DNA of 38,998 nucleotides from Rhodospirillaceae bacterium (GTDB taxonomy: Bacteria > Pseudomonadota > Alphaproteobacteria > MPNO01 > UBA2964), in NCBI GenBank assembly GCA_002719885.1, contig PBFH01000049.1, forward strand, positions 1 to 38,998, read 5' to 3'. The position numbers and the translations under genes were made by a program. Every line of letters starts with the position of its first letter. Positions within the stretch are counted from its first letter, which is position 1. Below the pieces are notes generated by a model. It searched no databases. It was not told where the DNA came from and saw only the letters and a list, made by a program, of their open reading frames with translations. Shown here in pieces: positions 24,521 to 35,296 of this stretch.

Positions 24521-25399
24521 TTAGAAACTAGTTTCCCTAATGATATTTCCGGATTTTCCGCCTTTTTTACTTACTAGCTGAATATCACTGATAAGTGAAT
24601 CGTGATCTATAGATTTGGTCATGTCGTATATTGTTAATGCGGTTATACTAACTGCAACCAAAGATTCCATTTCTACGCCTGTTTTGGAATTACTTTTTGC
24701 CATTGCTTCAATTACAAATCGATTATTATCCTCGTCAATTTCTATTGTAATATCTACATGGTTTAAATCAATTTGGTGACATAAAGGAATTAATTCAGGA
24801 GTTCTTTTTGCTGCCATAATTCCTGCAATTCGAGACACACTCAAAACGTCGCCTTTAGGGTTATTCGCATTAAGAACTTGCAAAATAATTTGTTGACTTA
24901 CTTTAACAAATCCTTTAGCAAAAGCTATACGTTCTGTGTCGCTTTTCTGACCTACGTCTACCATTTGCACTTTGCCTTCTTCACTAATGTGAGAAAGTTT
25001 ATTTTTTTTTACCATTTCAGCCTTTCCTTGAGCTAAATCATTAACTTTTTCATTATAAAAATCACCGCTATGCCCTTTAACCCAATTCCAAGAAATATTA
25101 CTGTGTTTTTGTATAACCTTTTCTAATTCATTCCAAAGCGATATATTAGCTTTTTTTTTCCACCCTTTTGTAATTGTATTTATTACATACAAACTATCAG
25201 AGAAAAGTTCAATAATTGAACTAGGTTCAATGAAATGTAAAGCTTCAATTACAGACCTTAATTCCATGCGATTATTAGTAGTATCTTCCTCTGATCCAGA
25301 CAACTCCATTTCTTCTCCATTAGGAAATATTATGACCGCGCCCCATCCGCCTGGACCGGGATTACCTAAACACGAACCATCTGTATATACTTTTATCAT
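24521..25399 (-). CDS. rnhA-moaC: RNase HI-MoaC fusion (ribonuclease HI + cyclic pyranopterin monophosphate synthase)
   Basis: A single 292-residue reading frame holds two complete enzymes. Residues 1-126 are RNase HI: D7 (YTDGS), E46 (NNRMEL), D68 (SDSLYV), H110 (VKGHSGD) and D121 form the active site. Residues 129-292 are MoaC, which makes cyclic pyranopterin monophosphate: LSHISEEGK at 135-143, H208 (LCHQID), D259 and K262 (YDMTK), then GGKSG near the end. They join at an AAGGAAAGG site, ATG (M129) and a run of nine A bases (25002-25010 on the plus strand as T). MoaC may therefore be made by re-initiation, or the run may slip. One extra A would stop RNase HI within a few codons. moaA lies just upstream. 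Confidence 0.85.
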   Translation of the reverse strand: MIKVYTDGSCLGNPGPGGWGAVIIFPNGEEMELSGSEEDTTNNRMELRSVIEALHFIEPSSIIELFSDSLYVINTITKGWKKKANISLWNELEKVIQKHSNISWNWVKGHSGDFYNEKVNDLAQGKAEMVKKNKLSHISEEGKVQMVDVGQKSDTERIAFAKGFVKVSQQIILQVLNANNPKGDVLSVSRIAGIMAAKRTPELIPLCHQIDLNHVDITIEIDEDNNRFVIEAMAKSNSKTGVEMESLVAVSITALTIYDMTKSIDHDSLISDIQLVSKKGGKSGNIIRETSF

Positions 25400-25408
25400 G
25401 ACCTATAT

Positions 25409-26416
25409 TTATCCACCAATCGCATACATTTCAATTTTTTTAGTTAGTTTCCTTCTTTTTGTATCAAATCGTTTTTGTGAGTATTGATCAGTTCTATTTC
25501 CCCATATTTGGACTATTTTATTTTTTAACTGTTCTTCATCATCAAAATCTAACGCTGGTTTAATATCAAAACCTAGATCAGAAAAAAGACACGTATACAA
25601 TTTCCCATCAGTTGATAATCTAATCCTCGAACAATTCCCACAAAACGGATCACTAACAGAAGATATAAACCCTACCTCTGCAGAATCATCATTATATTTC
25701 CACCTATTGGCTACCTCATTGATATATTGCTTTTCTAAAGGAGTAATCCCAAATTTTTCATCTAACATTTTAGCAACTGTTGCAGAGGGCACAACATGCG
25801 ACTTATCCCATCCATTTAAATTACCTACATCCATATATTCAATAAACCTCAATATATGGCCTTTAGCCTTAATATATTCTGCAAGATCTATCAGATTTTT
25901 ATCGTTCTTTCCTTTTTGAACAACTGTATTAATTTTTATTGGATTAAATCCTAGTTTTTCTACAAGATCCAATCCTTCAAGTACAGTTGTTAATTCAGCA
26001 TTAACACCATTCATTTCTTTAAACAAATCTTCATCAATTGTATCGATGCTAATTGTAATCCTTTTCAATCCAGCTTTATGGAGTTTTTCGGCATATCTAG
26101 ACAACAAATATCCATTAGTAGTAAGTGCCAAGTCTTCTATTCCTGGTATTTGAATCAGCTTCTTTACTAACAAATCAAGATCTTTTCTTAATAGAGGTTC
26201 TCCTCCAGTGAGTCTTATCTTAGAAACACCCAATTCGGCAAAAACTTTAGCAATTCTTTCTATTTGTTCAAAAGATAAAACTTGATCTTTCGGTAAAAAC
26301 TTATATCGTTCACCATATATCTCAGCTGGCATACAATATGGACATCGAAAATTACAACGATCTGTAACTGAAATTCTTAAATCCTTAATTGGTCTATTAA
26401 ATATGTCTTTTATCAT
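25409..26416 (-). CDS. moaA: GTP 3',8-cyclase MoaA
   Basis: Radical SAM enzyme that, with MoaC, converts GTP to cyclic pyranopterin monophosphate in molybdenum cofactor synthesis. The 335-residue protein has the N-terminal cluster CNFRCPYC (C21, C25, C28), GGEP (71-74) and the C-terminal cluster C259, C262 and C276. It ends in Gly-Gly, the catalytically important tail of MoaA. The start ATG 26416 has no clear ribosome binding site. The next gene begins 9 bases after the stop and contains MoaC, so the two act in sequence on the same pathway. moeA lies about 7 kb away. Confidence 0.96.
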   Translation of the reverse strand: MIKDIFNRPIKDLRISVTDRCNFRCPYCMPAEIYGERYKFLPKDQVLSFEQIERIAKVFAELGVSKIRLTGGEPLLRKDLDLLVKKLIQIPGIEDLALTTNGYLLSRYAEKLHKAGLKRITISIDTIDEDLFKEMNGVNAELTTVLEGLDLVEKLGFNPIKINTVVQKGKNDKNLIDLAEYIKAKGHILRFIEYMDVGNLNGWDKSHVVPSATVAKMLDEKFGITPLEKQYINEVANRWKYNDDSAEVGFISSVSDPFCGNCSRIRLSTDGKLYTCLFSDLGFDIKPALDFDDEEQLKNKIVQIWGNRTDQYSQKRFDTKRRKLTKKIEMYAIGG

Positions 26417-32770: not shown

Positions 32771-34063
32771 ATGACTACTAATAATCCAAATTTTTCTGAA
32801 AATATGTTATCTGTTGAAGAAGCAAGAAACAATATACTTGAAATGATGTCTGTTTTAAATTCTGAGCATTTACCAATTTCAAAATCCTTGGGCCATGTAT
32901 TATCTGAGGATATTTCATCAATAATTAATGTACCTCCATGGAATAATTCTGCAATGGACGGGTTTGCAGTTATAGCCAGTGATACCAATGGTGCAAGCGA
33001 CGTTAATCCAGTAAACCTAAATGTTATTGATTCAGTATATGCAGGTGATATGCCTAACTCGAAAGTCTCTCCCAATACTGCAATAAGAATAATGACTGGA
33101 GCACCTATACCAGAGGGAGCCAATGCAGTTGTTCCATTTGAGCAGACAAACGAAACACAACAAAAAAACACTCATCAACAATTAAACACAATAAGTATTT
33201 TAAAACCTGTCAAAGAAAACGATTATATTCGATTTTGTGGTGAGGATATTAAATCAGGAGATAATATATTTACAAAAGGGACAATTCTCAGACCAAGTGA
33301 AATTGGAGTTTTGGCAACACTTGGATTTAAAGATATCCCAGTTATTCGAAAACCGAAAATTGCAATAATATCTACTGGTAATGAGCTAACAGATATTGGT
33401 GAACCTATAGAACTAGGTAAAATTTATGACGCCAATACATACAGTATAGCAACATCTGTCGAAAAATATGGAGGAATTCCGATTATTATTGGAATAGCTA
33501 GAGATAATGAAGAATCATTAAATGCACTCCTTGATAAGGCTTTAGAATACGATATTCTCGTCACATCTGCTGGTGTTTCAAAAGGTGACTACGATATTGT
33601 CAAAAACATATTAAGCCAAAGAGGAAATATCGAATTTTGGTCGGTCAATATGAAACCAGCAAAACCAATTGCGTTCGGCTGGATCAATAAATCGAAAACT
33701 ACAAAATTACCTTTGCTAGGACTACCTGGCAATCCAGTAAGTGCAATGGTGGCATTTGAACAATTTGTACGACCTTCAATATTGAAACTCAAAGGATATA
33801 CAAAATTAAATAAACCATCCATACAAGCAATTTTAAAAAACACAATAAAAAATGAAGATGGTAGAAGAATGTACATTAGGGTTCTTGTAAAAAAAGAAGG
33901 AGTCGATTATTATGCAGAGGCAACCGGAAACCAAGGATCTCATGTCCTTACTTCTATGGCAAAAGCCAATGGCTTAGCCATATGTCCTGAGAATATATTA
34001 GAAATTAAATCTGGACAAACAATTGAAGTACAAATGATAGATTGGCATGTTGATGACTTGTAG
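32771..34063 (+). CDS. moeA: Molybdopterin molybdenumtransferase MoeA
   Basis: Inserts molybdate into adenylylated molybdopterin to form the molybdenum cofactor. The 430-residue protein has NNSAMDGFAV near residue 60, MTGAPIPEGA, SAGVSKGDYD (MPT-binding loop) and GLPGNPVSAM. A beta-barrel C-terminal domain IV follows. ATG 32771 begins two bases after pheT, with no obvious ribosome binding site of its own, so it may depend on coupling with pheT. moaA and moaC in the same window show that the host makes the cofactor; the molybdoenzyme itself is not here. Confidence 0.95.
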   Translation: MTTNNPNFSENMLSVEEARNNILEMMSVLNSEHLPISKSLGHVLSEDISSIINVPPWNNSAMDGFAVIASDTNGASDVNPVNLNVIDSVYAGDMPNSKVSPNTAIRIMTGAPIPEGANAVVPFEQTNETQQKNTHQQLNTISILKPVKENDYIRFCGEDIKSGDNIFTKGTILRPSEIGVLATLGFKDIPVIRKPKIAIISTGNELTDIGEPIELGKIYDANTYSIATSVEKYGGIPIIIGIARDNEESLNALLDKALEYDILVTSAGVSKGDYDIVKNILSQRGNIEFWSVNMKPAKPIAFGWINKSKTTKLPLLGLPGNPVSAMVAFEQFVRPSILKLKGYTKLNKPSIQAILKNTIKNEDGRRMYIRVLVKKEGVDYYAEATGNQGSHVLTSMAKANGLAICPENILEIKSGQTIEVQMIDWHVDDL

Positions 34064-34558: not shown

Positions 34559-35296
34559 ATGAAGTCGCTATTAACTACATATGAAACTGTGTACAAAGTA
34601 GAAGGTATGACATGTCAGGCCTGTGCTGACACTATTGAGACTGGTATAAAAACAAATTTAGGTGTTTTGTTGGCTCATGTCTCGTTAGAGAAAAAAGAAT
34701 TGAGAATTCAATCGGACACAATTTTCGAAATAAACCATATAAACTCGGTAGTAACAAATCTAGGTGACTACAGAATTAGGGATAATAACCCCAGTTTAAT
34801 ATCTAACATTGTAGAATATTTTGTTTCTAAAAAACCCATTGTTATTGCACTATCTTTAGTCACTATATCATCACTGGCTTTACAAGTACCTACTAATACA
34901 TTTGATATAAATAAATGGTTTATGACATATATGGGTCTTTTTTTTATGCTCTTCTCATTTTTAAAGCTACTAAATGTAAGCGGTTTTAGTATGACGTTTA
35001 GAAAATATGACTTGATTTCCAAGAAAATCCCTGTATTCTCAACAATATATCCATATATTGAATTAGCCCTTGCAATAGCTTTCTTAACAGAATCATTATT
35101 AATGTATGCAATGATATTTACATTGATTTTTATGATATCCCAATCTATAGGAGTCTATAACTCACTGCGAAGTTCTGAACAAATTCAATGTGCATGTATG
35201 GGCTCTGCAATTAGTCTTCCACTCTCTTCATTGACTCTCATAGAAAACTTAATCATGATTAGCATGGCGACATATATGATACAGACCTATTTTTAA
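34559..35296 (+). CDS. HMA domain fused to MauE/DoxX-type membrane protein
   Basis: A 245-residue protein in two parts. Residues 10-73 are a heavy-metal-associated domain with GMTCQACA (16-23), whose C19 and C22 would bind Cu(I) or a similar soft metal. Residues 90-245 hold about five membrane segments of the MauE/DoxX type, with FSFLKLLNVSGF, KIPVF, YPYIELALA and a conserved CxC (C211, C213, in CACMGS). MauE-type proteins handle redox or disulfide chemistry; in this architecture, metal handling is likely. The start ATG 34559 has no clear Shine-Dalgarno sequence. It follows the unknown cysteine protein and converges with rplT, whose stop lies six bases away. Confidence 0.85.
   Translation: MKSLLTTYETVYKVEGMTCQACADTIETGIKTNLGVLLAHVSLEKKELRIQSDTIFEINHINSVVTNLGDYRIRDNNPSLISNIVEYFVSKKPIVIALSLVTISSLALQVPTNTFDINKWFMTYMGLFFMLFSFLKLLNVSGFSMTFRKYDLISKKIPVFSTIYPYIELALAIAFLTESLLMYAMIFTLIFMISQSIGVYNSLRSSEQIQCACMGSAISLPLSSLTLIENLIMISMATYMIQTYF

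Follow-up and report, generated by a model that had tools for sequence, protein, structure and literature searches.

A single reading frame encodes RNase HI and MoaC

The DNA analysed here, called the window, is the whole stretch of 38,998 nucleotides (positions 1–38998; contig C49 of assembly G000). One open reading frame on its minus strand contains two full Pfam domains (Table 1): RNase_H at residues 3–126 (E = 1.5e-31; 109.9 bits against a PF00075 cut-off of 25.8), and MoaC, an enzyme of the molybdenum-cofactor pathway, at residues 146–281 (E = 2.4e-52), with the second half also recognised as MoaC by the NCBIfam equivalog TIGR00581 (178 bits; cut-off 141.5). This bears out an earlier note on the same DNA, which had proposed that two unrelated enzymes share one frame. 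The moaA gene, on the same strand, ends 9 nt before the fusion ORF starts, and moaA and the fusion presumably form one transcription unit. In an AlphaFold monomer model both domains are confident (mean pLDDT 89.7) and their relative placement is not (pTM 0.55), with pLDDT falling to 67–71 at residues 131–150.

Table 1. Features of the fusion locus, and other genes observed in the window
Feature	Positions	Strand	Basis or remarks
RNase HI–MoaC fusion ORF, 292 aa (292 codons)	24521..25399	−	Two Pfam domains in one ORF
RNase HI domain, residues 1–128	25016..25399	−	Pfam, residue columns, dN/dS
Second nine-A run, inside RNase H part	25151..25159	−	Eight A in L075
Shine-Dalgarno-like AAGGAAAGG	25021..25029	−	AAGGGAAGG in 99% identical relative
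In-frame ATG, M129	25013..25015	−	Candidate internal MoaC start
Linker M129-V-K-K-N133, five residues	25001..25015	−	Translation
Nine-A run at junction	25002..25010	−	Retained in L075, interrupted by G in L033
MoaC domain, residues 134–292	24524..25000	−	Pfam, active-site positions, dN/dS
moaA (GTP 3',8-cyclase)	25409..26416	−	TIGR02666, E = 3.9e-115; protein ends Gly-Gly
moeA	32771..34063		
Heavy-metal-associated (HMA) domain fused to MauE-like membrane domain	34559..35296	+	
ORF of 1028 aa	16124..19210	−	Adjoins dnaJ and prmA; no Pfam match

The earlier note had further claimed that both sets of catalytic residues are present, which holds for the MoaC half and for all but one position of the RNase HI half. 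Specifically, the seven MoaC active-site positions are all occupied (K182, K198, H208, E243, E245, D259 and K262, which we take to correspond to K51, K67, H77, E112, E114, D128 and K131 of the E. coli enzyme), and the RNase HI half carries D7, E46, D68 and H110 (D10, E48, D70 and H124). The fourth acidic residue (D134 in E. coli) is replaced by Asn120. E. coli RNase HI tolerates asparagine here, and the assignment of the domain to the RNase HI family therefore stands; the same substitution occurs in 21 fusions, including that of the window.

Host and distribution of the fusion

Assembly G000 has 7.1% contamination, and it contains a second rnhA, a second moaC and a second pyrG that is only 55% identical to pyrG of the window. 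The window matches other genomes far more closely: the Dehalococcoidia genome G064 carries its pyrG at 100% identity and 17.6 kb of it at 99.3% DNA identity, and the Station ALOHA Dehalococcoidia MAG G061 (locus L033) is 86% identical over 19 kb. These second-lineage genes and matches show that the contig is misbinned and derives from a marine-type Dehalococcoidia species. The same fusion is found in G064 (locus L075; 99% identity) and in L033 (85% identity). It is absent from the relatives of G000 itself, and in one of these, the one-contig genome G002, rnhA and moaC lie ~3.5 Mb apart by coordinate.

A search of related genomes for the RNase HI–MoaC architecture, as the earlier note had suggested, found it repeatedly. 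The 131 loci examined comprise 76 fusions (the window counted), 44 loci at which separate genes are adjacent, defined as rnhA immediately preceding moaC in the same orientation, and 11 with moaC and no adjacent rnhA. Directly upstream of the pair, moaA is found at 50 of 76 fused and 33 of 44 adjacent loci. Among 197 relatives of G061, many matches cover both halves. An even draw from within the class gave a match at 1e-55 or better in 26 of 293 other genomes, which is a lower bound because long linkers reduce the score; an even draw from within the phylum (n = 250) gave one match, G451, which was also present in the class draw. A profile search for a degenerate RNase H at the 11 moaC-only loci found none. 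The moaA–moaC interval at several of these loci (e.g. L149 and L156) is about 460–560 nt. MoaE was present in all ten genomes checked.

Origin of the fusion

The separate gene pairs present a graded series of arrangements. Intergenic gaps range from 230 nt down to 2 nt, other pairs overlap by 4 nt at ATGA, and at L130 and L132 the two genes share one frame with only TAA and then an in-frame ATG between them. These last two loci are one codon from fusion, and readthrough would yield the fused protein. The earlier note had held that relatives with a stop between separate rnhA and moaC would refute its reading; such relatives do exist, and they mark the origin of the fusion rather than disprove it. 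A one-base route is suggested by the fused locus L076 (G182), in which a run of ten A lies exactly at the site of the ATGA overlap of its separate sisters L154 (G139) and L160 (G206), such that removal of one A gives AAATGA and restores the ancestral ATGA pair.

On a tree of MoaA and MoaC, the fused label requires 18 changes, at least 8 of which are forced by well-supported (starred) branches; these counts are approximate because the tree was built quickly and has long branches, and it does not distinguish fusion from fission. Taken as a reading of this tree, joining of rnhA and moaC seems to have occurred several times. We propose that rnhA became lodged between moaA and moaC in Dehalococcoidia, and that the tightly packed, co-translated neighbours would then have merged repeatedly, through stop codon loss or a one-base insertion or deletion. 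Unlinked genes, neighbours, ATGA overlaps, a lone stop, fusions and fusions with a dead RNase H together provide many natural replicates, with which one can test directly whether drift, operon packing or functional tethering leads unrelated enzymes to fuse.

Loss of the RNase HI handle

The basic handle helix (protrusion) of E. coli RNase HI is missing from the window protein, which has a 14-residue deletion at this site relative to L035 and the E. coli type. This basic handle is not universal in the RNase HI family. Its loss, together with the substitution at D134, could mean that RNase H activity is weak. All or part of the handle is missing from 75 of 76 fused domains versus 21 of 44 separate ones (Fisher p = 1.4e-11), an association that would be expected if fusion served functional tethering: a handle-less RNase HI would bind hybrids poorly alone, and an oligomeric MoaC would multiply its binding sites or replace the handle. 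In the actinobacterial RNase HI–CobC protein Rv2228c, which has a 10-residue linker, the presence of CobC increased RNase activity in vitro, the full-length protein being more active than the handle-less N-terminal domain, and CobC has been proposed as a substitute for the protrusion (PMC7466739). However, no such effect was seen in SCO2299 (linker of about 120 residues), nor was the Rv2228c effect seen in vivo in M. smegmatis, where removal of CobC had hardly any effect and the authors favour drift (PMC7466739).

Strong as the raw association is, comparison of phylogenetically independent pairs leaves two to three informative cases and is not significant. We therefore rejected handle loss as the driver of fusion and put tethering forward only tentatively. 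Moreover, unfused genes lose the handle too, so that fusion is not the cause of its loss; handle-less RNase HI is also known without any fusion (PMC1950709), and the linkers of the fusions vary from 2 to 87 residues. Overall, we consider functional tethering unlikely. The same doubt attaches to its broader form, in which the MoaC oligomer would stand in for the lost handle as a multivalent scaffold, with handle-less RNase HI recruited repeatedly and Actinomycetales (CobC) and Dehalococcoidia (MoaC) arriving at similar solutions by convergence.

Selection on the RNase H domain

Both halves of the fusion are under purifying selection, with dN/dS values relative to L033 of 0.086 for RNase H and 0.121 for MoaC, compared with 0.067 for MoaA. 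Of the 74 fusions that could be scored, 72 retain the three acidic residues and the histidine (DED + His). When 48 genomes were searched with PF00075, the MoaC-fused domain was the only RNase HI in 37 of the 44 in which it is intact, a single-copy status that is provisional because the genomes are incomplete MAGs. This is a caution for annotators: in many Dehalococcoidia, a gene labelled moaC may conceal the sole RNase HI.

The exceptions follow a pattern. In L164 (G128) and L183 (G107), the MoaC-fused domain has lost D10, H124 and D134, and in L165 (G248) and L170 (G236) an unfused rnhA adjoining moaC has lost its catalytic residues. All four of these genomes carry a second, full-length RNase HI, intact in G128 and G107 (Fisher p = 0.0017 for the association, with G128 and G107 being sisters). 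This distribution is consistent with a functional RNase HI whose loss is tolerated solely in genomes that have another copy. It might be supposed instead that the domain is a non-catalytic passenger or regulatory module, retained for the folding or control of MoaC, since the G128 and G107 fusions persist without D10, H124 and D134, and Asn replaces D134 in the 21 fusions mentioned above. We consider this very unlikely, given the near-universal conservation of DED and His, the low dN/dS, and the second RNase HI that always accompanies a dead domain. RNase HII was present in nine of ten genomes checked and might carry the RNase H load instead of the fusion.

The A-rich junction

The junction reads CAAGGAAAGGCTGAA ATG GTAAAAAAAAATAAA, and the Shine-Dalgarno-like motif, the in-frame ATG (M129) and the nine A bases that the earlier note had pointed out are all found there. 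A frame check also confirmed that one extra A in the run gives GTA AAA AAA AAA TAA, an immediate stop. From these features, it had been proposed that the A run and the internal ATG form a device for two or three products: the fusion, RNase HI alone and MoaC alone. The earlier note had suggested counting the A bases in raw reads; nine are present in two independent assemblies (the window and the 99% identical L075), so that the number does not stem from faulty assembly. In bacteria, slippage increases with A/T run length (PMC5574713), which favours such a device, whereas slippage of E. coli RNA polymerase on poly(A) is weak, more A than T bases being required (PMC6260861), which speaks against it.

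Comparison across fusions does not sustain the proposal. Although the junction has a long A run with a stop after a slip, it lacks conservation beyond what coding would produce: the 85% identical sister L033 has no nine-A run at the junction (GTAAAGAAAAAT). Nor is the run unique in the window, which has three A/T runs of nine, one of them the second nine-A run inside the RNase H part. Among 20 AT-rich fusions, a junction A run of at least eight is seen in 7, compared with 5.2 expected from the linker amino acids and locus codon use under a synonymous-codon model (and 0.36 expected from other coding windows), indicating that A runs accompany lysine-rich linkers. We therefore rejected programmed slippage. 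An A run and a start codon are both missing from most fusions, notably from those rich in GC. No ATG, GTG or TTG lies between the domains in 24 of 76, no ATG in 44 of 76, and any inter-domain start codon with a Shine-Dalgarno-like motif is found in only 19 of 76. An internal MoaC start was accordingly rejected as a general feature; at M129 of the window it is a possibility. In addition, a +1 slip lies downstream of M129 and would also destroy a MoaC begun there.

In favour of the proposal, loss of one A from the ten-A run of the related L076 would restore the ancestral gene pair. A one-base length change would toggle this locus between fused and separate states, making it a better test case for slippage than the window. 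For the window, we regard a device for two or three products as highly improbable, and the nine-A run is probably an incidental result of a linker rich in lysine and a genome rich in A and T, as part of the overall explanation given below. Background truncation at the run is likely, at a low level at most; a regulated device is not supported.

Interpretation and comparison with known systems

The chance that an assembly or sequencing error joined two genes is practically nil: the sequence does come from a MAG and from a misbinned contig, but the fusion recurs in the 99.3% identical independent assembly, in the 85% identical L033 and in more than 70 other genomes, which refutes this reading.

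The explanation that we consider probable is that the locus encodes a real bifunctional RNase HI–MoaC protein of marine-type Dehalococcoidia, in which two independent enzymes were merged by operon packing. The N-terminal domain would be the cell's only RNase HI, cleaving RNA in RNA/DNA hybrids, and the C-terminal domain would convert the product of the adjacent MoaA into cyclic pyranopterin monophosphate; the RNase H domains would presumably sit on an oligomer of MoaC. Each domain most likely acts independently of the other. In the RNase HI–CobC proteins the domains separate in vivo (PMC7466739), in line with this explanation.

No paper on an RNase HI–MoaC pair was found in the open literature searched, in agreement with the earlier note, which knew of none; the fusion is apparently undescribed so far. 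Its closest precedent is the actinobacterial RNase HI–CobC family (Rv2228c, MSMEG_4305 and SCO2299; PMC7466739; NCBIfam NF005567). The two share a handle-less N-terminal RNase HI, a variable linker and a C-terminal cofactor-biosynthesis enzyme, and the CobC fusion, too, may be the sole RNase HI annotated in a genome (M. tuberculosis). However, the partner there is CobC (vitamin B12) rather than MoaC, and that family is confined to Actinomycetales. The window RNase HI also scores 136 bits to canonical RnhA versus 38.5 bits to NF005567 (cut-off 326), and its C-terminal domain is MoaC, not a CobC/acid phosphatase domain.

MoaC itself is known from other fused proteins, namely MoaC–MoaB (PRK03604), MoaC–MobA (PRK14500) and MoaC–MOSC (PRK14499) in NCBIfam, and the archaeal fusions MoaC–MoaE, MoaC–MoaB and MoaC–MoaC (PMC11237513), and frameshifts within syntenic blocks have been invoked for some of these fusions. 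MoaC is N-terminal in all three NCBIfam proteins and the partner is a cofactor-pathway protein or a MOSC domain, whereas in the window MoaC is C-terminal and the partner is a nucleic-acid enzyme. Relative to canonical RNase HI (RnhA, PF00075), the window domain is alike in fold, DED and His, and differs by the missing handle, Asn for the fourth Asp and the fusion to MoaC. Relative to canonical MoaC (TIGR00581), it is alike in full length, the seven active-site positions and the adjoining moaA, and differs by its N-terminal RNase HI. RNase HI is thus joined to an enzyme of cofactor biosynthesis in a second, apparently undescribed case, which comes from a phylum other than that of the CobC fusions.
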